Positions 16,531 through 30,983 of a DNA stretch of 64,000 bases are shown here, one piece after another. The stretch covers positions 1 to 64,000 of the forward strand of contig CAIQCK010000002.1 in NCBI GenBank assembly GCA_903870275.1, given 5' to 3'. The notes beneath the pieces are model-generated. The model saw only the letters and a list, made by a program, of their open reading frames with translations. It was not told where the DNA came from and ran no database searches. This stretch comes from an uncultured bacterium (GTDB taxonomy: Bacteria > Verrucomicrobiota > Verrucomicrobiia > CAIQCK01). Each line of letters begins with the position of its first letter. Positions within the stretch are counted from its first letter, which is position 1. The position numbers were made by a program, and so were the translations under genes.

Positions 16531-17304
16531 TTAAACCGCCTTGTTGTCGCCAGCCCACGGCAGGTAGGCAACGATGTCGTCAGGGCCGAAATGGATCATG
16601 TATCCTTGAGACACAAGCAGTTCCAGACAGGCATTGCAGTCGGCCAGTGACAAATGCAGATGCTCTAGGTTGATGAGCGTCGGTCGAAAACGCCGGAAAT
16701 CCACCATCTTCAGAATTTCAAAGTCATACCCTTCAGCATCAATCTGCAAGAGATCGATGCGTTGAACATGGTGCGCTTCCAGAAGCTCCCCGAGAGGAAT
16801 GGCCTGGACTGTTTCCTCCAGGATCAGATCGGGAATGGAAGCGCCTCCAGGCACATGCTTGGCAATATGATCGGCGTTGAACGACGCAATGCCTGAGGGA
16901 TCATGCGGGTAAAGGTGAGCGTATTGGGGGTTCAGTTTATACAGCGTCTTCGAACCTCTTTCAGATGCGATCGCCACGTTTTCGAGGCGAATCTGGCCCA
17001 TCTGCCGGTAGGCCTCTTTCAGCCTCTCGAAAGCGGCCGTCTGCGGTTCGATCAACAACCCCGGCAGCTTATATTGCCGGACGATTTCGTAGATCGGGTC
17101 GCCGGCACCTCCTTCGTTGGCTCCGACCTGAACAAAAAAGAATTCGCCGCGCGGCCGCAGTATCAGGTCGAGAAGCACCCGAATATGAGGCGTGAACACG
17201 CGATCGGGGTTTTGTTTCAGGATGTCCAGGGGTTTGCGGACTTCATAGCCGTAGCGTTCCAGCATGGAAACCATTGTCCGGCGGATCAGGGTGCGCAACT
17301 TCAT
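16531..17304 (-). CDS. FkbM family methyltransferase
   Basis: This 257-residue SAM-dependent methyltransferase has motif I FVQVGANEGG near residue 60 and the FkbM signature LLQIDAEGYDFEILK near 195. FkbM enzymes O-methylate sugars or small molecules and are common in glycan loci. The ATG of MKLRTLIRRT is chosen, as the open frame continues 74 codons further but without similarity. It is oriented against its neighbours and interrupts the lut paralogue set between lutB and lutC. Confidence 0.85.
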   Translation of the reverse strand: MKLRTLIRRTMVSMLERYGYEVRKPLDILKQNPDRVFTPHIRVLLDLILRPRGEFFFVQVGANEGGAGDPIYEIVRQYKLPGLLIEPQTAAFERLKEAYRQMGQIRLENVAIASERGSKTLYKLNPQYAHLYPHDPSGIASFNADHIAKHVPGGASIPDLILEETVQAIPLGELLEAHHVQRIDLLQIDAEGYDFEILKMVDFRRFRPTLINLEHLHLSLADCNACLELLVSQGYMIHFGPDDIVAYLPWAGDNKAV

Positions 17305-17556
17305 GGCATGAGGTTCTTTTTTTTGGGCAACGATAATACAACGATCATGCCGCCTGCAGCGGTCATTTGCGGAAACAATCTGTGACATCCAGCGCATCGC
17401 GACAAGACAATATTGCGGGCGGGGCTGCCGTTTCATTCCCTCTTGCGTTGCGCCGCCGCTGTCTTTAGGTTCGTGCCGCGCAAAGTGTTGGCGAAGCCGC
17501 CGTCCTCCCCGCGAGTGATGCCGCAAGGTTTTTGCCGACCGGTTGCGCGTGTCAGC

Positions 17557-19053: not shown

Positions 19054-19578
19054 ATGAATTCTCTTGCCAAGCAGGTGGAGTCGCCCGAATTGGCCGCGGC
19101 CTGCCTCCGATTCATCGAATCGGGCGGACACACGACTCAATCGTTCGGACTGGGACAAGTGCTGGGGCAGGTGTTCGCGCTGCTTTATCTCAGCCCGAAA
19201 CCATTGTGTCTGGACGAGATTGTCGAGGAGCTCGACGTGAGCAAAGCCAGCGTGAGCACGACCGTGCGGCAGCTCGAAGAGTGGTCGGCCGTTCATCACG
19301 TCTGGGTCAAAGGCGACCGGCGGGATTTCTACGAGGCGGAGACGGACTTCAAAGCGATGCTCCGGCATGGCGTGCTGGCGCCGTTGCGCAAGAAGATGGA
19401 TACCGCGGTGGTCCGTATCGAGCACGTTGAGGAGTCGTTGCACAAGGCGCTGGAAAAAACGAACCCCGAGCAGCGTGCGCAGGCCAGAATCGTAGCCGAG
19501 CGGCTGCAACGGGCGCGGAAGTTTCACGCAAAAATCAACGCACTGCTGAATAATCCCTGGCTGGACCGATTGTTGTAG
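19054..19578 (+). CDS. GbsR/MarR family transcriptional regulator
   Basis: This 174-residue protein has a winged helix-turn-helix with the recognition region CLDEIVEELDVSKASVSTTVRQLEEW near residues 52-76. A coiled-coil C-terminus follows (VVRIEHVEESLHKALEKTN). It matches the GbsR-like MarR group. The start is the ATG immediately after the palindrome; the frame is open back to 18985 but that part contains the promoter. It sits between the UbiA gene and the ABC exporter operon and probably controls itself and possibly parts of the glycan locus. Confidence 0.85.
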   Translation: MNSLAKQVESPELAAACLRFIESGGHTTQSFGLGQVLGQVFALLYLSPKPLCLDEIVEELDVSKASVSTTVRQLEEWSAVHHVWVKGDRRDFYEAETDFKAMLRHGVLAPLRKKMDTAVVRIEHVEESLHKALEKTNPEQRAQARIVAERLQRARKFHAKINALLNNPWLDRLL

Positions 19579-19630
19579 GCGCATCGTCAAAGCGCGGCCC
19601 ATCCAGCGACCGCGACGAAAACAAACATGA

Positions 19631-19694
19631 CCTTCGGATTGGCGAAGGACAAAGCAGACGGGCATCCCGGCGCTTTTCGGATGCACCCGAAGGG
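19631..19694 (+). promoter_or_regulatory. Competing hairpins in the wzm/wzt leader
   Basis: CCTTCG-N6-CGAAGG (19631-19648) and a second hairpin with core TTCGG-N6-CCGAA (19676-19691, extendable with G-U pairs to 19673-19694) are each self-complementary. CCTTCGG at 19631-19637 is also perfectly complementary to CCGAAGG at 19687-19693, so the two hairpins and the long-range pairing exclude one another. Confidence 0.4.
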
Positions 19695-19704
19695 CGGTAG
19701 CTTG
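19688..19704 (+). promoter_or_regulatory. JUMPstart/ops-like element before the ABC exporter operon
   Basis: GGCGGTAGCTTG (19693-19704) fits the E. coli ops consensus GGCGGTAGnnTn. The 17 bases from 19688 match 14 positions of the 3' end of the JUMPstart sequence as I remember it. It lies 72 bases upstream of wzm, in the leader of a polysaccharide export operon, which is where ops sites recruit RfaH (a NusG paralogue) in enterobacteria. Confidence 0.5.
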
Positions 19705-19708
19705 TTTA

Positions 19709-19768
19709 GAAACCAGAAGCCAGAGTCAGAGACTGGTTTCCGGTCTCTGACCTCCGATTTCTGACCTC
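19709..19768. repeat. Inverted and direct repeats directly before wzm
   Basis: GAAACCAG/CTGGTTTC (19709-19716 and 19733-19740) and GTCAGAGAC/GTCTCTGAC (19725-19733 and 19743-19751) are perfect inverted repeats that overlap. TCTGACCTC occurs twice as a direct repeat (19746-19754 and 19760-19768). The stretch ends 8 bases before the wzm start codon. Confidence 0.5.
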
Positions 19769-19776
19769 TGTCGCCT

Positions 19777-20595
19777 GTGACTATCACCGTTATATCCGCC
19801 GACCGCCGCGAACGATGGCTCCAGTTCCTGAAGGACCTGTGGGACTACCGCGAATTGTTTCAGACCTTTTTGATGCGCGACATCAAGGTGCGTTACAAGC
19901 AAACCGTTCTCGGTGTCCTGTGGGTCATCCTCCAGCCGTTGTTCATGAGCGGCGCTTTCGCGATGATCTTCGGCGGCATCGTGCGCATGCCGACGGACGG
20001 GTTGCCTTACACGCTGTTTTACCTCGGCGCGCTGGTGCCGTGGACCACTTTTTCGTCGGCGCTCTCGGCGTCGGCGCTCAGCATGGAGGCCAACGCGCAT
20101 CTCATCAGCAAAATCTATTTTCCCCGTCTGGTGGCGCCCGGCGCGGTGGTCTGCACCTCGCTCGTGGATTTCGGCATCGGCTGGGTCTTGCTCAACGGTT
20201 TCGCTTTGTGGCAAGGGCACTGGCACTGGATGCTGATCGCCATCACCCCGCTGTTGCTGGGCATTCAGATCCTGACAGTTCTGGGCGCGGGCCTGGTACT
20301 GGCAGCGCTCCACGCCCAATACCGCGATGTCAAACACCTCATTGTTTTTCTGGCGCAACTCTGGATGCTGGCAACGCCGGTGATCTACCCGGCGTCGGCC
20401 GTCCCAGTGTGGGCGAGGGACTGGCTGTTCCTCAATCCGATGGCGGGCGTGGTGACCGCCTACCGGGCGGCGTTGCAGAACGCGCCGGTGGACTGGCTGC
20501 AGATGGGCCTGAGCCTGGCGGTGGCTTTGTCGTCTGCGATTTTTGGCGTGTGGTTTTTCCGCCGCCGCGAGACGTATCTTGTGGATATCCTGTGA
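19777..20595 (+). CDS. wzm: ABC polysaccharide exporter, permease
   Basis: This 272-residue ABC-2 permease has a cytoplasmic N-terminal amphipathic stretch (YRELFQTFLMRDIKVRYKQTVLG, the usual start of KpsM/Wzm/TagG) and six membrane helices. It forms the membrane channel that exports completed, lipid-linked polysaccharide. Translation begins at GTG, and the stop overlaps the ATPase gene start (GTGA). A 198-base leader with an ops-like element and hairpins precedes it. Confidence 0.9.
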   Translation: MTITVISADRRERWLQFLKDLWDYRELFQTFLMRDIKVRYKQTVLGVLWVILQPLFMSGAFAMIFGGIVRMPTDGLPYTLFYLGALVPWTTFSSALSASALSMEANAHLISKIYFPRLVAPGAVVCTSLVDFGIGWVLLNGFALWQGHWHWMLIAITPLLLGIQILTVLGAGLVLAALHAQYRDVKHLIVFLAQLWMLATPVIYPASAVPVWARDWLFLNPMAGVVTAYRAALQNAPVDWLQMGLSLAVALSSAIFGVWFFRRRETYLVDIL

Positions 20596-21920
20596 GCGCT
20601 CCCGCCATCCAAATCGAAAATCTCGGCAAACGCTATCGCTACGGCGGTGTGGCGGCTCTGAACACCAGCCTGCGAGCCGACGTCACCGACTGGGTGAAGG
20701 GAATGTTCCACAAGAACAAGCACCCGTCGGCCGTTGTTTCACCGCACCACGAATCGTTTCACGAAATCCATGAACGCCACGTGGCCGCAGACCCAACCTA
20801 TTTTTGGGCGCTCAAGGACATCAACCTGGACATCCAGCAGGGCGAAGTGGTCGGCATCATCGGCCGCAACGGCGCGGGCAAGAGCACGCTGCTGAAAATC
20901 CTCTCGCGCATCACGCCGCCGACCACGGGGCGCGTCACCTACCGCGGCCGGATCGCGAGTTTGCTGGAGGTGGGCACCGGATTCCATCGCGAGTTGACCG
21001 GCCGCGAGAACATTTTTCTCAACGGCTCGATCCTCGGCATGACCCGACGGGAGATCGCGCGGAAATTCGATGAGATCGTGGCGTTTGCCGAGGTGGAGAA
21101 ATTCATGGACACGCCGGTGAAATTCTACTCCAGCGGCATGTATGTGCGGCTGGCTTTTGCCGTCGCGGCGCATTTGCAACCTGAGATTTTGATTGTGGAC
21201 GAAGTGCTGGCGGTCGGCGACATCGGCTTTCAAAAGAAGTGCATCGGAAAAATGGAAAGTGTCGCCCGGGAAGGTAGGACGGTCCTGTTGGTCAGTCACA
21301 GCATGGGCACGGTCAAAGCCCTGTGCTCCAAGGCCATCTTGCTCGATCACGGCACCGTGAAAGCGAGCGGCTCGCCGGATGAGGTGGTGGCAGAATACTT
21401 GAAAGAGCATGAAGCGGATGCGGCCGAAAGAGTGATCCGGGACGAGGATCATCGGAACGCGGTGACAAAGATGCGGCTGAAAAGAGTGCGGTTGTTGCAC
21501 GGAGCGCAGAATCGCTTTGCCGTTTATTGGCAACAACCGATCGCCGTGGCGCTGGAGGTCGAGGTGCTCGAGCGTATTGAACGAGTGACGTTTGGCGCAC
21601 AAATTCTGACGATGGACGGCACTCCTGTGTTTACGGTGCATCACGATGACGACGTGTCGCAGCCGCACTGGACGTTGGAACCGGGCGTATATCGCCTTGA
21701 GTTTACCCTGCAAAACCCTCTTCGCCCGGGTCTGTATCAACTTGAAATGGGCGCCGATCAGGAACATCTGATGATGACGGGTTTTTGTAGCGTCAGGGTT
21801 GCGACGCTCGAAGTCCTGGATCACACGGAACACGGCTTGACGCCTGTGGCGTTCAAAACCGGGGTCATCAATGGCGCATCCGCTTGGAAACAACCGGAGC
21901 GGTTGGAAGGCGGCAAGTGA
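20592..21920 (+). CDS. wzt: ABC polysaccharide exporter, ATPase with C-terminal Wzt domain
   Basis: This 442-residue protein has Walker A GRNGAGKS at residues 91-98, signature YSSGMYVRLAF, Walker B EILIVDEVLAVGD and the switch His in LLVSHS. A segment of about 50 residues sits between the first strand and the Walker A core, a feature of Wzt-type ATPases. After residue 280 comes a beta-rich Wzt C-terminal domain (VALEVEVLERIERVTFG to YQLEMGADQEH). In E. coli O8/O9a this domain recognises the modified end of the O-antigen. A capped glycan is therefore likely, and several methyltransferases nearby could make the cap. Confidence 0.92.
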   Translation: MSAPAIQIENLGKRYRYGGVAALNTSLRADVTDWVKGMFHKNKHPSAVVSPHHESFHEIHERHVAADPTYFWALKDINLDIQQGEVVGIIGRNGAGKSTLLKILSRITPPTTGRVTYRGRIASLLEVGTGFHRELTGRENIFLNGSILGMTRREIARKFDEIVAFAEVEKFMDTPVKFYSSGMYVRLAFAVAAHLQPEILIVDEVLAVGDIGFQKKCIGKMESVAREGRTVLLVSHSMGTVKALCSKAILLDHGTVKASGSPDEVVAEYLKEHEADAAERVIRDEDHRNAVTKMRLKRVRLLHGAQNRFAVYWQQPIAVALEVEVLERIERVTFGAQILTMDGTPVFTVHHDDDVSQPHWTLEPGVYRLEFTLQNPLRPGLYQLEMGADQEHLMMTGFCSVRVATLEVLDHTEHGLTPVAFKTGVINGASAWKQPERLEGGK

Positions 21921-22004: not shown

Positions 22005-23825
22005 ATGCGAGTCCTGCTTGTTGCTCCAACTCACAACTATAAATTCCAGTATCCGTCTTTTCTGTCGAATACTGATTTTCCCGTGGGTTTCGCCTATCTT
22101 GCATCCGCCCTTCGGCGTGCGGGCCACGACGTTTTTGGTCTCAATCCAAACAACATGCCTGGCTATGCTTCCGCACACGAGATGCTGCAATCCAAGCTGT
22201 CCGGTGCGATCAAGGAACATCAACCTCAGGTCATTGGCGTGGGCGGCCTTTGCACGGATTTCGCTTTCCTCAAAGATGCCATCCAGATCATTCGAACCAC
22301 AGTTCCAGATGTTCCAATAGTATGCGGTGGGGGGATCATCAATAACGATGCACCGTTTGCTTTCGAAACCCTGCGACCGGATTTCTGCGTCATTGGCGAG
22401 GGTGAAGAGGTGTTGGTCCAACTGACCGACATGCTGGCCAGTGGCAGGCGCGATTATGACACAATTCCCAATCTGGGATATTGGAAAGGGACGGCTCCAC
22501 AGTTCACGCGACAGGATTTTAGATACGGCGATCTCGATAGCCGTCCGTTTCCGGACTACGAGCCGTTTGGCATCAACGACATGCTCGACCATTACGGTCT
22601 GGCCGCGCGATACCTTTACCGTTACACGAGAACCGATCCTCGTCCCATGACGCTGGTGACGGCTCGAAGCTGTCCGTTCCGATGCACGTTTTGCGTGCAC
22701 CAAAGAGGACCCAAATACAGGGCCAGATCTATTGAGAATATCATTCAAGAGATCACGGTTATGTATGATCGTTATCACTTCAACATCCTTATCATTTTGG
22801 ATGAACTCTTTGCCGTGAACAGGAGGCGACTGCGGGAGTTTTGCGCCGCGCTGATGGAGCGGCGCAAAGCTTTGGGGTGGGACTTTGACTGGTTTTTTCA
22901 GACGCACGCCAGCGCATCTTTGCAAACAGAAGACATGAAGATGGCCAGAGAGGCCGGCTGCTACTGTTTTAGTTACGGTCTTGAGAGCGCCAGCCCTTCG
23001 GTTCTGGCCAGTATGAACAAGCGGACCAAACTCCCCCAGATTGTCGAGGCAATCGAAAGGGCGCACGCCGCGAAGATTGGCTTCGGCGGCAATTTTATCT
23101 TCGGCGACAGTGCTGAAACCACGACAACCGTTGCTGAGACGATGGAGTTCTTGACGAAGCACTTGCTGGACGATCACATATACTTTGACAGCATTCAGCC
23201 CTATCCGGGCAGCCAGTTGTTCGACTCTTGCCTGCAAAACAAAATTATCCGGGACAAGCTGGATTTCTACGAACATATTCATCAGCAGTGGTATAACACG
23301 AGCGCGGTATCGGATGAGGTGTGGTATCCCTGGTTGGCAAAGTTGAATGGCGTCGCATGGACGTTTCCCTGGGTGAGGTCGGTGAATGCCTTCAGTTCAG
23401 CCGAGGAACCGGAGGCGGCCCGGAACACGTTTGCGGCATATACCGGGCAGAAGTTGTATGAGGTGCAGGCCAGGTGTCCCCACTGTGACGGAGAAGCCCG
23501 CTACCGCGAATTGCTTCGCGAACAGGACGGAAATCCATCCATCTCGGAAGGCCAGAAACCATCGGGGCGGTTGTTTGAGCGCGCGGCGCGGCTCCTGAGC
23601 AAAATCGCGACAGTATATTGTCGCGAACACAAACATCTGCTGAAGTATTTCAAGAACAAGATATCCATCATATTGGAGAGACAACGTGTCGTTTCTCTCC
23701 TGGATCGCATCAAGGGACGCGGGACAATTGCCGCATTGTCTTTCATCACAGGTTGTCCGCATTGCAACAAGCGGTTCAGGATCAACATAACAAACCCGCC
23801 TGCGACGTTGAGCCGGTCACCGTGA
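22005..23825 (+). CDS. B12-binding-domain radical SAM protein with C-terminal zinc-knuckle pairs
   Basis: This 606-residue protein starts with a cobalamin-binding-like Rossmann domain (residues 1-150, VGFAYLASALRRAGHDVFG and GVGGLCTDF). A radical SAM core follows, with CPFRCTFC at 223-230. The C-terminal part has two CPHC pairs, at 491-494 and 584-587, that look like zinc-binding knuckles. Relatives methylate or rearrange unactivated carbons, often in natural-product or lipid pathways. The reaction here is unknown. It follows wzt by 84 bases in a glycan locus, so a sugar or lipid-carrier modification is possible. Confidence 0.85.
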   Translation: MRVLLVAPTHNYKFQYPSFLSNTDFPVGFAYLASALRRAGHDVFGLNPNNMPGYASAHEMLQSKLSGAIKEHQPQVIGVGGLCTDFAFLKDAIQIIRTTVPDVPIVCGGGIINNDAPFAFETLRPDFCVIGEGEEVLVQLTDMLASGRRDYDTIPNLGYWKGTAPQFTRQDFRYGDLDSRPFPDYEPFGINDMLDHYGLAARYLYRYTRTDPRPMTLVTARSCPFRCTFCVHQRGPKYRARSIENIIQEITVMYDRYHFNILIILDELFAVNRRRLREFCAALMERRKALGWDFDWFFQTHASASLQTEDMKMAREAGCYCFSYGLESASPSVLASMNKRTKLPQIVEAIERAHAAKIGFGGNFIFGDSAETTTTVAETMEFLTKHLLDDHIYFDSIQPYPGSQLFDSCLQNKIIRDKLDFYEHIHQQWYNTSAVSDEVWYPWLAKLNGVAWTFPWVRSVNAFSSAEEPEAARNTFAAYTGQKLYEVQARCPHCDGEARYRELLREQDGNPSISEGQKPSGRLFERAARLLSKIATVYCREHKHLLKYFKNKISIILERQRVVSLLDRIKGRGTIAALSFITGCPHCNKRFRINITNPPATLSRSP

Positions 23826-23972
23826 CTATGGGATGTGATTTGCCAGTGATCGAAAGTTCTTGCCATGTTCCAGCCGGGAAACGGCGGTTTCTGCCAGGGA
23901 ACAAACAGTTTCCGTGTCCGAGGATGTTCCACGTGGACTTCCAATCGTGTGGCGGATAAACCCGAAAAGTGC

Positions 23973-24896
23973 ATGAACGAAAACCTGAAAGAAAAGATCA
24001 AGCGCGGATTGCAGAGCTACCTGCCGCGACTGTGGAAGACTTACTGTGTTTTGAGGACGCCCGGCGCAATCAAAAAGACTCGGTGGATCCAAGAGAGGTT
24101 GGAAAAGGCACGTTTTCGCCGGTGCATCAAAGAGGGGAAACCTTATTTCGGTCCGATCATGGCTGCCCGGCAGGGGGCGCCGGTTCGCCACGCTTATATG
24201 CGGGCTCTAGTGAAACAGGAATGCGCCCGGATCGGAGATCGTCCTTATCGAATCTTGGAAATTGGATCGTGGGCCGGCGGCTCCGCCATCACGTGGGCTG
24301 GCGCAATCCAATCCTTCAACATGGGGCGGGGTTGCGTGGTATGTGTAGATCCTTGGGAGCGTTACCTGGGCAATCTCGTTTGTCGTGCTGAGGTCTATCG
24401 AGCGATGCACGAGGCGTTGAAGAGCGGTGATATCTTCAACTTGTTTCTGCATAACATCCGCTTTTCCGGATTTCACTCGCTCGTCAAGGTTATGAGAGGT
24501 CAATCCGGCGACATCCTTCCATTGCTCAAACCGGAGACAATGGATCTTGTCTTTGTAGATGGGGCGCACGATTACGCGAGTGTCGCGGCGGATTTAAAAA
24601 ACGCGTCGTCGCTGGTTTGCGAAGGCGGAATCCTGTGTGGCGACGACCTTGAGCTTCAGCTTTCTGTGATTAATGCGCATCACGCGAAGGACAACGCCGC
24701 CATTGATTATGTTCGCGACCCAAACACCGGTGGATGGTTTCATCCGGGTGTTACGCTCGCTGTGGCGGAGTCATTCGGCGAGGTTTCCGCATGGGAAGGT
24801 TTTTGGGCGGTGAGAAAAACCGGGCGGAGTTGGGTAAAAGTCGTCGCTGAGAAACTCGACCGGGAAGATATTCGGGTGCCGCCGCACTTGGGTTAA
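23973..24896 (+). CDS. Class I SAM-dependent methyltransferase
   Basis: This 307-residue protein has motif I RILEIGSWAGGSA near residue 93, an acidic loop CVDPWE, and the motif FVDGAHDYASVAADL followed by GGILCGDD. This pattern matches the Methyltransf_24 type often seen in glycan and natural-product clusters. The chosen ATG starts MNENLKEKIKRG; the frame is open 36 codons further upstream without similarity. The basic N-terminal 60 residues may contact membrane or glycan. Confidence 0.8.
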   Translation: MNENLKEKIKRGLQSYLPRLWKTYCVLRTPGAIKKTRWIQERLEKARFRRCIKEGKPYFGPIMAARQGAPVRHAYMRALVKQECARIGDRPYRILEIGSWAGGSAITWAGAIQSFNMGRGCVVCVDPWERYLGNLVCRAEVYRAMHEALKSGDIFNLFLHNIRFSGFHSLVKVMRGQSGDILPLLKPETMDLVFVDGAHDYASVAADLKNASSLVCEGGILCGDDLELQLSVINAHHAKDNAAIDYVRDPNTGGWFHPGVTLAVAESFGEVSAWEGFWAVRKTGRSWVKVVAEKLDREDIRVPPHLG

Positions 24897-24928
24897 GCTA
24901 CGCGGTCCGACTTGACGAATCGTTCCCT

Positions 24929-26008
24929 ATGCGATGTCCAAACCTGTCGGAACTGCCTCCGCCGCCTCCGGGAACGAGCGGCTGGCCGTGGACGGAGGAA
25001 ACGCCGCCGTTGCCGGCCGCGATGCCCGATGGCCGGCCATGGCCGAAATTCAGCATCGTCACGCCCAACTACAACTTCGACAAGTTTCTGGAAAAAAACA
25101 TCCGCTCCATTCTTTTGCAGGGTTACCCCGATCTTGAATACATCGTCGTTGACGGCGGTTCGACGGACGCCAGTGTTGCGATCATCCGCAAATATGAGAA
25201 ATGGCTCGCGCGCTGGATCAGCGAACGGGACTCCGGCTCGGAGCAAGCCATCAACAAGGGTTTCCAATGGTCCACCGGCGAATTGCTGGCCTGGCTTGGC
25301 TCGGATGACATTTACCTTCCTGGCGCGTTGGGCATGGCCGCGCAAGAAATGAGCCGGCGGCCGGATTGCTGTGTGATCAACGGCGATGCTTGCGTTCACA
25401 ACGATCGTGGAGAAGTGCTGACGGTGATCCAGCCGGGTGAAGTGACGCGGGACCGGCTTGTGAGATTCTGGACCCGGCCTCCGTATTTCGCCATACCGCC
25501 GGCGGTGGCGGTGTTCTTCCGCCGCTGCGTCGTGAAGGAAGTTGGCTGGATGAACGAGAACATCCGTCTGGTTTCGGATTATGAGTGGTGGTTGCGGATG
25601 ATTCAGAAGTTTCCATTCCACTACGTGCCGAATGCGCTCGCGGCATGTTGCGTGCATCCGGCTTCCAAGACCGTTTCGTTCGAAAGCGACCGGGATGCTG
25701 AAATGACCGCCGCCAGCCAGCAATACTGGGGCAGTCCAACCGAATGGCGGTTTTGGAGGATGTGGGCGGAGTGCCGGGTTTATTGGACAAGGATTGGGTT
25801 TCTTCGATTAAAAAGCGCCTGGTTGTCGGCGGCTTACAATGCGTTCGCCGCGGGCCGGCGCGCGCATTGTTTAGGGTGGTTGTTGGCAGCGTTTATCCGG
25901 TCGCCCGCCTACACGATCCATGGCGGCGGCGCCGGCTTGGCGTTGCGGACGGTGGTGGGCGAGGAGCGTGAGCGGAAGTTGAAGCGATGGTTGCGGTGGC
26001 GGCAATGA
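24929..26008 (+). CDS. Glycosyltransferase family 2
   Basis: This 359-residue enzyme has a proline-rich N-terminal tail of about 38 residues, then FSIVTPNYNFDKFLEKNIRS, VVDGGSTDAS, and the paired motifs ISERDSGSEQAINKG and WLGSDD, the metal-binding site of this GT2 group. The ED-type acceptor motif is SDYEWWLRM. It lies 32 bases after the methyltransferase gene and probably adds one sugar on the cytoplasmic face. Confidence 0.88.
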   Translation: MRCPNLSELPPPPPGTSGWPWTEETPPLPAAMPDGRPWPKFSIVTPNYNFDKFLEKNIRSILLQGYPDLEYIVVDGGSTDASVAIIRKYEKWLARWISERDSGSEQAINKGFQWSTGELLAWLGSDDIYLPGALGMAAQEMSRRPDCCVINGDACVHNDRGEVLTVIQPGEVTRDRLVRFWTRPPYFAIPPAVAVFFRRCVVKEVGWMNENIRLVSDYEWWLRMIQKFPFHYVPNALAACCVHPASKTVSFESDRDAEMTAASQQYWGSPTEWRFWRMWAECRVYWTRIGFLRLKSAWLSAAYNAFAAGRRAHCLGWLLAAFIRSPAYTIHGGGAGLALRTVVGEERERKLKRWLRWRQ

Positions 26009-26199
26009 CCGAGATGCGTTGGGACCGAGATGCGGCAGGTGTTCCGCGGATTTGCCTGGTCAGAAAATGTTCGGTGAATTCCGTTGAGCACGCAAACGGA
26101 TTGATCCGAACGCCCGGCGTCGCGTGGCCGCCGCATTGCATGCCCGGCTAAAGTTTCGCCGGGCCCCTGGCAACAATCGGACAAAAAGAGGGAAAGCTT

Positions 26200-27275
<1,076 letters not shown>

Positions 27276-27279
<4 letters not shown>

Positions 27280-28247
27280 GTTTTGCCAGCCAATGCGCCC
27301 TGGTGACGGGAGCGGCGGGTTTCGTCGGCAGCCACGTGGTGGACCGGCTGCTGGCGGAAGGCGTGGCCGTGACTGGCTACGACAACTTCAGCACGGGGCA
27401 GGAGAAATTCCTGCAGCACCTTCGCGGCAACCCGCGCTTCCGGCTGGTGCGCGGCGATATTCTCGACGAGGCGTCGCTGCAAGCGGCGATGACGGGCGCG
27501 GATTTCGTGTTTCATCTGGCTGCCAACGCCGACGTGCGCAGCGGTCAGGCCAACCCGCGGATTGATCTGGAGCAGAACACCGTCGGCACGCACCGCGTGC
27601 TGGAGGCGATGCGGAAGACGGGCGCGCGCCGCATCGCGTTCACCAGTTCGGCCACCGTCTATGGCGAGCCGGAGATATTCCCGACGCCGGAAGATTGCCC
27701 GCTGATCCAGACCTCCACCTACGGCGCGTCGAAGGCGGCGGCAGAGCAGTTCATCGAGGCGTATGCCGAGTTTTATGATTTTCGCGTGTGGATTTTCCGG
27801 TTCGTGTCGTTTCTCGGCGAGCGATATCCGCACGGCGTGGTGTTTGATTTTTTGAAAAAGCTGCGGGCGAATCCGCAGGAGATGGAGATTCTCGGCGACG
27901 GCACGCAGCGCAAGAGCTACCTCCACGTCGAAGACGCGCTGAACGGCTTCTTCACGGCGATCGCGAAAGCCGACGGCGCGAAAAACATTTTCAACGTCGG
28001 CAATGACGAATACCTCGACGTGGTGCGTGTGGCCGGCATCGTCTGCGAATGCGCGGGACTGAGCGGCGTGCGGTATCGTTTCACCGGCGGCGTTCGCGGT
28101 TGGAAAGGCGACTCGCCGTTTGTGCATCTGGACACGGCAAGGCTTCAGAAGCTCGGATGGCGGCCGCGCGTGACGATCCCCGATGCGATCCGGCGGACGG
28201 TGGCGTATTTGCAGGCCAACCCCTGGTTGCTGGAGGCGCGCACATAA
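27276..28247 (+). CDS. NAD-dependent epimerase/dehydratase (UDP-glucose 4-epimerase-like)
   Basis: This 323-residue extended SDR protein has [12 protein letters not shown] at the N-terminus, the serine of [11 protein letters not shown] and the catalytic pair in [16 protein letters not shown] and a C-terminal [14 protein letters not shown] are typical of UDP-hexose epimerases. It is coupled to the preceding epimerase by ATGA overlap. The two together suggest a committed route to a particular nucleotide sugar. Confidence 0.87.
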
Positions 28248-28248
28248 C

Positions 28249-29361
28249 GTGAAGCTGCCGTCCGTCCCGCGCCTTCGCATCCAGTTCGTGCTGCCGTTCA
28301 CCGGCCTCACGGGCGGCAACAAGTGCGTGCTGGAATACGCCAATCGTTTGAAGGCGCGCGGCCACGACGTGTGGCTGATTCATGATTATCCGGACATTCC
28401 GTTCTGGAAACCGCGCGGCTTCGCGCTGACCAAGTTGCGCGACTGGGGCGCGTGGTCGTGGGTGAACTGGTTCGACGTGCGAGTGCCGGTGGTGCGTTGT
28501 CCGGGCCTGGAGGCGGGTTACGTGCCGGACGCGGACGCGGTGCTGGCAACGTATTATCGCGCCGTGCCGGTTGTCGCGAAACTGCCGCCGGGCAAGGGCC
28601 GGCAGTTCAATCTCATCCAGGCTTACGAGACGGACTGGATCGAGGAGAAGGAATTCTGCGATTCCACCTACCGGATGCCGCCGAGGCACATCGTCAACGC
28701 CTCGTGGGTTGGCCGCCTCATGTGGGAGAAATTCCGTCAACCGTCGGTGAAAGTGATTCCGGCCACCAGTTACGAGCAATTCGAGCTGCGGCCGGGGCGC
28801 GTGTTTCGCACTCCGACGCGATGCCTGATGCAATATCACACGCTGCCGGTCAAAGGCGTGGCGGACGGCATCCGCGCGTTCGAGATGGCGGCGCGCGCGG
28901 TGCCGGGTTTGACGCTGACGCTGTTCGGCACACGTTCGACGGGCTTGCAAACGCCGCACCGTGTCGCCGGCATGGTGCCGGAGCCGAAAATGGCGGACCT
29001 TTACTACGACCACGACATTTTCATCTGGCCGAGCCATCGCGAAGGTCTCGGCACGCCCTGCCTGGAGGCCATGGCGTGCCAGTGCGCCGTCGTGACGACC
29101 GACAACGGCGGCAGCGAGGAGTTTGCGTTTCACGAGCGGACGGCGCTGGTGTCGCCGCCAAAGGATGTGGAGGCCCTGGCGACGAATATTGTGCGATTGG
29201 CAAAGGACGCGGCATTGCGGCGGCAGCTGGCAGAGACCGGCTGTGCATGGGTCCGGCAACACATCACGTGGGACCTCGCGTGCGCCGGGCTGGAGCGATG
29301 CTTCACGGATGACTCGCTGTGGAAGGGGCCGAATTCGGCAACCGGCGTGGAGGCGGCATGA
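28249..29361 (+). CDS. Glycosyltransferase family 4
   Basis: This 370-residue GT-B enzyme has N-terminal FTGLTGGNKCVLEYAN, the usual glycine-rich acceptor-side loop. The C-terminal donor site EGLGTPCLEAMACQCAVVTTDNGGSEEF includes the E-x7-E type pair. The GTG start follows the epimerase stop directly, and its own stop overlaps the next gene. GT4 enzymes retain anomeric configuration using nucleotide sugars. Confidence 0.88.
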   Translation: MKLPSVPRLRIQFVLPFTGLTGGNKCVLEYANRLKARGHDVWLIHDYPDIPFWKPRGFALTKLRDWGAWSWVNWFDVRVPVVRCPGLEAGYVPDADAVLATYYRAVPVVAKLPPGKGRQFNLIQAYETDWIEEKEFCDSTYRMPPRHIVNASWVGRLMWEKFRQPSVKVIPATSYEQFELRPGRVFRTPTRCLMQYHTLPVKGVADGIRAFEMAARAVPGLTLTLFGTRSTGLQTPHRVAGMVPEPKMADLYYDHDIFIWPSHREGLGTPCLEAMACQCAVVTTDNGGSEEFAFHERTALVSPPKDVEALATNIVRLAKDAALRRQLAETGCAWVRQHITWDLACAGLERCFTDDSLWKGPNSATGVEAA

Positions 29362-30983
29362 ACAATTCCCGGTTCCGCAACGCGCTGCTGGTTCTCTACG
29401 TCCTTGTCGGTGTGGCGTGGAGCGTCTCGATTCCGACTTTTGAGGCAGGGGACGAGCCGGCGCACCTGGAGCACGTGCGGTTTATCGCGAAAGAAAAACG
29501 ACTGGCAGTGATTTTGCCGCCACCGCACAAGCCGGTTGGAGAAGGGTTTCAGCCGCCCCTTTATTACGCCGCGCTGGCGGCGGTTCGCCAAGCGTTTTTT
29601 GGAACCAACGAGACGCCTTCGATCCAATTGCGGCCGGATTGGAAAAATGACGATCGGGGGTGCAGCGCGGTCTGGTATCAGCACCACGAAGAAGAACGGT
29701 TTCCATTTGCCGGCATCGCGCACGAAGTGCATCTCTTGCGTCTTTGCTCGGTGTTTATCGGGTTGATCGCGCTTTGGTTTTTGCACCAGTCGCTGGTGAC
29801 GGTGTTTCCCGACACCAGCGTGGTGCCTTGTGTGGCGCTGGCGTGGGCGGCATTCCTGCCCGGCTTCACGTTCATTACGGCGGTGTTAAGCAACGATGGT
29901 CTGGCTACGGCGCTGAGTGCCGTCGCCATGGCGCAAGCGGTCAGAATGGTTCAGGGCGGCCGGCCGCTTCGGGAGTGGGCGTGGCTTGGCGGCGTGGCGG
30001 GTTTGGGGGTGCTGGGAAAACTAACCACCGTTCCCATCAGCGCGGGCTTGTGTCTGGCGTTGCTCTGGTATGAACGGCGGAATTGGCGGCGTGGCGTGGC
30101 GTGTGGTGGATGTTTCGCCGCAGGCCTGCTGGCCGTCAGCGGGTGGTGGTTTGCGCGAAACTGGATTCTTTACCATGACCCGATAGGATGGAATGTCGCA
30201 GTGATGGTTAATCCGTGGACCGTGTTGCCTCCGGGCTACTGGAGTGGAGAGCGGGTGTTGAAGGACGCGCATGTTTGCTTCTCCAGTTATTGGGGGGTGT
30301 TTGGTTACTTGAGCGTTTCGATGAACCATTGGATCTATCGCGCCTTGTATGGGGTAACACTGTTGGGGCTGCTTTGTGCGGGCTGGTGGATTCGACGCGA
30401 ATGGCGTCATTGGCCCGACTCGACCCGGCGGGGTGTGATGGTCATGCTGGCTGCGATGGCAGTCGGCATCGTCACGTTGATATGCCAATGCGCCAGAAAT
30501 CGGTTGGCACAAGGCCGGTATTTGTTCCCCGGATATCCTGCTCATGCCTTGGTGGTGGCGATGGCGGCGGTGTGTCTGGGCCATGTGTTTATGCGACGGC
30601 CGGTATGGGTGGCGCGGCTGGCGTGTTGTCTGGCCGGCGGATTGGGCGCCGTGCTTGTGTTGTTCCGCGGGCCATTGCTGGCCGCAACAGCGAACGGGGT
30701 CAGGCAGTGGTTCAACTGGAAACCACGGACGATGACGATCGAGTTCTATTTGAATCAAGGCCGTTGGCTATACGAGACAGGAACCGGAATCGCGCTGGGC
30801 GTCGCGTTGGCGGCCGGCGTCCTGTGGGCGTGGCAAGCGCGCCGGGCGCGCGAAAACGGCGAGGAGGCGGTTGCGCGATGGTGGCAAGAGCGACGGTTCG
30901 GCTTGGCGATGGGCTGGGGTTTGTTGATGGCGGGCCTCAACATTTTCTGTTTGGTGAAATATCTCCTGCCGGCCTACCGGTAG
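29358..30983 (+). CDS. Integral membrane GT-C-like protein (GT39/PMT-related)
   Basis: This 541-residue protein has about eleven hydrophobic helices. The first external loop carries the acidic motif EAGDEPAHLEH, and then GEGFQPPLYYAAL, both characteristic of lipid-linked-sugar-using GT-C enzymes (GT39/ArnT type). Such proteins add a sugar from a polyprenyl phosphate on the periplasmic side. It overlaps the GT4 gene by ATGA. No soluble C-terminal domain is seen. Acceptor and donor are unknown. Confidence 0.75.
   Translation: MNNSRFRNALLVLYVLVGVAWSVSIPTFEAGDEPAHLEHVRFIAKEKRLAVILPPPHKPVGEGFQPPLYYAALAAVRQAFFGTNETPSIQLRPDWKNDDRGCSAVWYQHHEEERFPFAGIAHEVHLLRLCSVFIGLIALWFLHQSLVTVFPDTSVVPCVALAWAAFLPGFTFITAVLSNDGLATALSAVAMAQAVRMVQGGRPLREWAWLGGVAGLGVLGKLTTVPISAGLCLALLWYERRNWRRGVACGGCFAAGLLAVSGWWFARNWILYHDPIGWNVAVMVNPWTVLPPGYWSGERVLKDAHVCFSSYWGVFGYLSVSMNHWIYRALYGVTLLGLLCAGWWIRREWRHWPDSTRRGVMVMLAAMAVGIVTLICQCARNRLAQGRYLFPGYPAHALVVAMAAVCLGHVFMRRPVWVARLACCLAGGLGAVLVLFRGPLLAATANGVRQWFNWKPRTMTIEFYLNQGRWLYETGTGIALGVALAAGVLWAWQARRARENGEEAVARWWQERRFGLAMGWGLLMAGLNIFCLVKYLLPAYR

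Follow-up and report, generated by a model that had tools for sequence, protein, structure and literature searches.

The wzm/wzt locus and its leader

The window, by which we mean the whole 64,000-nt stretch of DNA that was analysed (its genome is referred to as G000), carries a polysaccharide export locus on its forward strand. A GbsR/MarR-like regulator gene with weak MarR_2 and CudC matches (19054..19578, +) lies directly upstream of the leader of this locus. The first exporter gene is wzm (19777..20595, +; Pfam ABC2_membrane), which encodes an ABC-2 transporter permease and for which no obvious Shine-Dalgarno sequence was found when the leader sequence was inspected; it is followed by wzt (20592..21920, +; Pfam ABC_tran and Wzt_C), encoding an ABC transporter ATPase with a Wzt C-terminal domain, and by genes for a B12/radical-SAM protein, a methyltransferase, a GT2, two epimerases, a GT4 and a DUF2142 membrane protein (22005..30983, +). 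It is plausible that wzm, wzt and these seven further same-strand genes, up to position 30983, form one glycan-export operon of roughly 11 kb, of which wzm would be the first gene, co-transcription being inferred from strand and spacing only; a promoter scan of the window leader recognised none. Elsewhere in the window, an FkbM-type methyltransferase gene (16531-17526, -) lies on the opposite strand within the upstream polysaccharide region, and an Acido-Lenti-1 RNA (RF01687) was found at 827-873 with 41.9 bits, which is above its gathering score.

The leader contains the ops-like 12-mer GGCGGTAGCTTG (19693-19704, +), with T at loop position 6, and the distance from this 12-mer to the GTG of wzm at 19777 is 72 bases. 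The site meets the ops core, having the loop G4 G5 T6 A7, the C3:G8 pair and the T11 G12 pause dinucleotide, and it also meets the leader criterion for ops, since it precedes wzm/wzt and the seven further same-strand glycan genes. The first-pass annotation had reported an ops consensus match at 19688-19704 (CGAAGGGCGGTAGCTTG) in the leader of a polysaccharide export operon, and this observation was confirmed; on a recount, 14 of the 17 bases were identical to the 3' end of JUMPstart. The accompanying argument that such a match would be rare by chance had to be amended: it counted nine fixed bases, and the consensus searched, GGCGGTAGNNTG, has 10. This consensus matched once in the window in comparison to 0.12 matches expected, and across the whole 7.13-Mb genome it matched 9 times in comparison to 45 times for the reversed control; the bare 12-mer is thus not enriched and proves nothing alone. 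The window copy was nevertheless judged to be real and above chance, because a 25-base block that contains it is conserved in related genomes.

Between the element and wzm lies an inverted repeat (19713..19776, +) with a strong fold, which derives from a dispersed TCTGACCTCTGAC-type sequence with partial matches around the genome, and it occupies the place of the RfaH-like gene found in the relatives G001 and G006 (cf. L036, L121). The TCTGACCTCTGAC-type repeat was seen in direct and inverted order at many places in the genome, including the window copy and contigs C119, C41, C71, C59 and others. In G002, repeats of the same type stand on either side of a four-helix-bundle-type (S23-like) gene that has been inserted between ops and wzm, and a remnant of a four-helix-bundle-type gene is kept at this place in G003; the gene type was recognised by eye in both genomes, without a family search.

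Conservation of the leader and linkage to RfaH-like genes

The leader was compared with the orthologous loci of the three other genomes of the genus (G001-G003). The 25-base block GATGCACCCGAAGGGCGGTAGCTTG (19680..19704, +), which consists of the ops-like element and a 5' extension, was identical at 23-24 of its 25 positions (24/25 in both G002 and G003). In the same genomes the spacer between the two conserved blocks of the leader had decayed to 11-14/29 identity and the first spacer to 25-29/55, and a neighbouring coding gene showed 76% identity between G000 and G003. When the 25-mer GATGCACCYGAAGGGCGGYAGCTTG was searched with up to 3 mismatches, exactly one copy was found in each of the four genomes of the genus and in G006, which belongs to a different genus, in comparison to 0 control matches in these five genomes, and each of these copies lay in the leader of an orthologous wzm/wzt operon. 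Conservation in related exporter leaders, whose absence was to have refuted the first-pass annotation, was thus observed directly, and in further families and phyla the element was also found in physical linkage with RfaH-like genes; the proposed search for the same 12-mer before other glycan operons was negative, the extended element being single-copy per genome.

The second conserved block, CATGACCTTCGGATTGGCGAAGGAC (19626..19650, +), also given as CATGACCTTCGGATTGRCGAAGGAC, is 22-24/25 identical in G001-G003. This block, palindromic in the genus, has CCTTCG and CGAAGG as the arms of an inverted repeat located about 45 nt ahead of ops, and in some relatives a stem-loop can be drawn. The block could possibly be an RNA hairpin or an operator of the adjacent GbsR/MarR-like regulator, and its role is not established. 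No second copy of the leader was found elsewhere in the genome, only fragments of dispersed repeats.

The gene order around the element was also retained outside the genus. The GbsR/MarR-like gene is syntenic upstream of the element in all loci of family f1 and most loci of family f5, and the order GbsR-like gene, ops, RfaH-like gene (where present), wzm and wzt was found in two families, the second of which is f5, while a genome of a third family, G015, has ops followed by an RfaH-like gene, wzm and wzt. The RfaH-like NusG paralogue starts 7 bases after ops in G001 and 15 bases after it in G006, and precedes wzm/wzt. A cis rfaH gene is absent from the wzm/wzt locus in G000, G002 and G003, and G002 keeps the element regardless; in G010, as in the window genome, ops stands before wzm/wzt and rfaH is located on another contig. 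A verrucomicrobial-type locus with GbsR, ops and rfaH was also seen in a MAG labelled Chloroflexi (L129, JACAEP010000324.1), whose RfaH-like protein is 68% identical to that of G001, reflecting either misbinning or transfer.

By scanning named GTDB genomes with an alignment of RfaH-like proteins, we gathered 80 loci from Verrucomicrobiota (including Opitutaceae), Nitrospirota, Nitrospinota, Acidobacteriota and Deltaproteobacteria/Binatia MAGs. At 38 of the 80 loci the sense strand carries the pattern GGCGG[CT]AGC no more than 300 bases from the RfaH-like gene, and at 1 locus the antisense strand does, in comparison to 1 and 0 for the reversed control; the 12-mer form is found at 30 loci in the sense and 0 in the antisense direction. 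Linkage and orientation are direct observations. The element is located upstream of the RfaH-like gene in Verrucomicrobiota, while in Nitrospira it is mostly 150-250 bases downstream of it, ahead of the next operon. No such element was seen at about half of the RfaH-like loci, namely those that are most distant. As an independent check, a locus from another family that was found by the DNA pattern alone (G324) has an RfaH-like gene about 190 nt beyond the element. Within Verrucomicrobiota a relaxed pattern was present in only 10 of 388 genomes, barely above control, and the system is thus restricted to some lineages. The proposal of RfaH-like antitermination in this phylum is accordingly supported by paralogues, conservation and linkage, with function inferred, but its scope was too broad.

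RfaH-like paralogues and the association of base 6 with residue 73

An RfaH-type NusG paralogue, whose presence in the genome had been put forward as a check, was found in two full-length versions, along with decayed copies. The two proteins, C73:413-910 and C31, score higher with the RfaH model TIGR01955 than with a NusG model; for the RfaH-like proteins the scores are 91-105 bits for TIGR01955 and 40-50 bits for TIGR00922, the best sequence matches are to RfaH ahead of NusG, and the RfaH models also score above those of UpxY or LoaP. With 91 and 104.9 bits, the curated TIGR01955 equivalog cut-off of 144.5 bits was not reached, and the proteins are therefore named RfaH-like and not RfaH. The stand-alone paralogue C73:413-910 has R at residue 73, and the window element has T6. 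Decayed or partial copies of this gene were observed at C73:35175-35387 and C30:3318-3805, with 94% DNA identity over 226 bases and 87% over 512 bases, respectively, which suggests that it was duplicated recently or is mobile. The other paralogue, C31:392-955 (L001/L039), is RfaH/UpxY-like and heads an exopolysaccharide locus of sugar-transferase, oxidoreductase and acyltransferase genes, with a counterpart kept in G001-G003; a two-mismatch scan saw no ops-like site beside it. Rho is present in the window genome. A search of the draft assembly gave no core nusG, and this is taken as an assembly gap; weak matches fitting nusG were found in G001-G003.

Of the ops-contacting residues K10, H20 and R73 of E. 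coli RfaH, position 10 is mostly K or R among the RfaH-like proteins, and H20 is largely replaced. Of the residues tied to the autoinhibited alpha-helical C-terminal domain (E48-R138, I93, F130), I93, F130 and R138 are mostly kept, with V130 in the C73 protein of the window genome, and E48 is not. The AF2 model of the RfaH-like protein of G001 had a mean pLDDT of 85.6, and its best PDB matches were E. coli RfaH with ops DNA, ahead of NusG. The C-terminal domain of this model is mixed alpha/beta, in part helix, and since this domain is predicted to be mixed and E48 is not kept, autoinhibition and fold switching are left unresolved. According to a 2026 preprint, there are cis-encoded RfaH homologues that are monomorphic and do not depend on ops (PMC13015549), which is a caution for the cis-encoded cases here.

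Over 45 sites the motif is tGCACCGGAATGGCGG[C/T]AGC[T/C]TG. Ops positions 1-5 and 7-9 (G1 G2 C3 G4 G5 A7 G8 C9) and one C of the extension are invariant, position 6 (C in 29 sites), the only base of the loop to vary, and position 10 are variable, and T11 and G12 are kept in 40/45 and 42/45 sites, respectively. The invariance of positions 1-9 is partly by construction, as these were demanded by the search pattern, while the extension, T11 and G12 were not demanded. The constraint observed is position-specific, and the positions invariant in the relatives coincide with those on which pausing and RfaH binding depend in E. coli ops (PMC5995543). In the complex from E. coli, a pocket made up of H20, R23, Q24 and R73 takes up the flipped T6, and specific reading is limited to G5 and T6 (PMC5995543).

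Base 6 was observed to be associated with aligned residue 73, which is R in T6 loci and N, T or P in most C6 loci: T6 pairs with R/K at this residue in 15 of 16 cases and C6 in 5 of 28, the other C6 cases having N, T, P, Q or H (Fisher p 9e-7, uncorrected for relatedness). On a tree built without the base-6 and residue-73 columns, there are at least 7 changes of base 6, and the independent contrasts on supported branches were in the expected direction in 3/3 cases and in the opposite direction in 0; being only 3, they cannot reach significance. The exception to the pairing is G003, whose element has T6 though no R73-type RfaH was found in its draft assembly.

Interpretation and comparison with known systems

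Our preferred reading, to which we assign a probability of about 0.83, is that the window element is an ops-type loading site for an RfaH-like factor acting on the roughly 11-kb glycan-export operon; pausing, hairpin formation, binding and antitermination, and likewise which paralogue acts here, are inferred, with no experiment and no expression data behind them. RNA polymerase transcribing the wzm/wzt leader would pause at the consensus pause within GGCGGYAGCNTG, and the exposed non-template strand could then fold into a small C3:G8 hairpin with the loop G-G-Y-A. An RfaH-like specialised NusG paralogue would read this loop, board the polymerase and carry it through the long operon against Rho/NusG-dependent polarity. 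In most relatives this putative factor is encoded beside the element. With the cis copy absent in the window genome, the likeliest candidate would be the stand-alone paralogue C73:413-910, which is favoured because its R73 fits T at position 6, its role as the acting paralogue being an inference.

It could be argued instead that the element is a relic, which served a cis RfaH-like gene such as still exists in G001 and G006 and has gone unused in the window genome since that gene is absent. The lack of cis rfaH in G000, G002 and G003, where a repeat or a four-helix-bundle gene fills its place, and the lack of an R73-type paralogue in G003 agree with this account, but the block is 24/25 identical to G002 and G003 next to a spacer of about half identity, the trans paralogue of G000 is intact and has a residue 73 that fits T6, and G010 is a second case of ops, wzm and wzt with rfaH on another contig; we thus hold a relic to be unlikely. 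We give considerably less credence to the possibility that the conserved leader blocks bind the adjacent GbsR/MarR-like regulator as an operator or attenuator unrelated to RfaH. Although the gene of the regulator immediately precedes the leader in every f1 locus and in most f5 loci and block 19626-19650 is palindromic, the ops block is orientation-specific and not palindromic, its constrained bases match RfaH and pause requirements, and it adjoins RfaH-like genes in G015, Opitutaceae and Nitrospirota loci in which no GbsR-like match was found; an operator may still explain block 19626-19650.

The evidence on base usage bears on a further alternative, namely that a conserved elemental pause without any dedicated loader coordinates translation start or folding, and that the linkage to rfaH merely reflects shared glycan operons. 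Pausing alone could be selected in a leader, and G1 G2 and T11 G12 fit the consensus pause, but the centre G4-G8, which the consensus pause leaves variable (PMC5995543), is in the form G4 G5 Y6 A7 G8 the most constrained part of the element, and base 6 varies together with residue 73 in the linked protein, so that this alternative is scarcely credible. As far as sequence can tell, the element and its factor behave like ops/RfaH by every test available.

Similar to the E. coli RfaH/ops system (GGCGGTAGCNTG), the loading site proposed here has the 12-base core, is placed within the leader of a long operon for polysaccharide export, has a consensus pause and the potential for a C3:G8 hairpin, and is linked to NusG paralogues that match RfaH best. 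The key differences are that it is found in other phyla, that the paralogue is usually encoded beside the element and usually has a single target, that C6 is commoner than T6, that a 5' extension, GCACCGGAAT, is conserved, and that H20 and E48 are not. Like JUMPstart RNA (Rfam RF01707, gammaproteobacterial), the leader belongs to a polysaccharide operon and ends in GGGCGGTAGCNTG, but membership of this family was rejected, as the window site scored 21.2 bits in comparison to the 35-bit gathering score, 16 related loci had no matches at the gathering score with relatives in three phyla falling short, and no upstream stem-loop is shared. A stem-loop 5' of ops can be drawn in some single relatives' sequences, but a consensus fold of 27 leaders gave only the ops hairpin itself and no covarying upstream stem, and a shared RNA stem-loop was likewise rejected.

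UpxY in Bacteroides, TaA in Myxococcus and LoaP in Bacillus are also NusG paralogues encoded within the polysaccharide or other long operon that they are thought to control. The recruitment of such cis-encoded paralogues has been described as largely unknown (PMC7593976, PMC7819879), whereas here an ops-like DNA site was identified beside the paralogue gene. According to a survey from 2020, RfaH is largely confined to Proteobacteria, the details of recruitment are known for no member other than the E. coli protein, and the residues that contact ops arose late in the evolution of RfaH (PMC7593976); our search, which left out subscription journals, found no literature on ops outside Proteobacteria. 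Since at least two phyla keep the signal beside RfaH-like genes, the control system, so far detailed only for E. coli and its relatives, appears far more widespread, and the ops-like sites would have gone unseen because the E. coli consensus misses their commoner form, in which position 6 is C and not T. If the preferred reading is true, the sites in Verrucomicrobiota and Nitrospirota extend ops/RfaH across phyla, supply a recruitment site for cis-encoded NusG paralogues, and suggest a testable one-base/one-residue specificity rule. Whether ops/RfaH is in general an old or widely transferred cross-phylum system and not a late gammaproteobacterial invention, with cis-encoded RfaH-like factors also recruited by ops-type DNA hairpins and with base 6 and residue 73 as a co-evolving specificity pair that separates coexisting factors, is a proposal that we consider evenly balanced.
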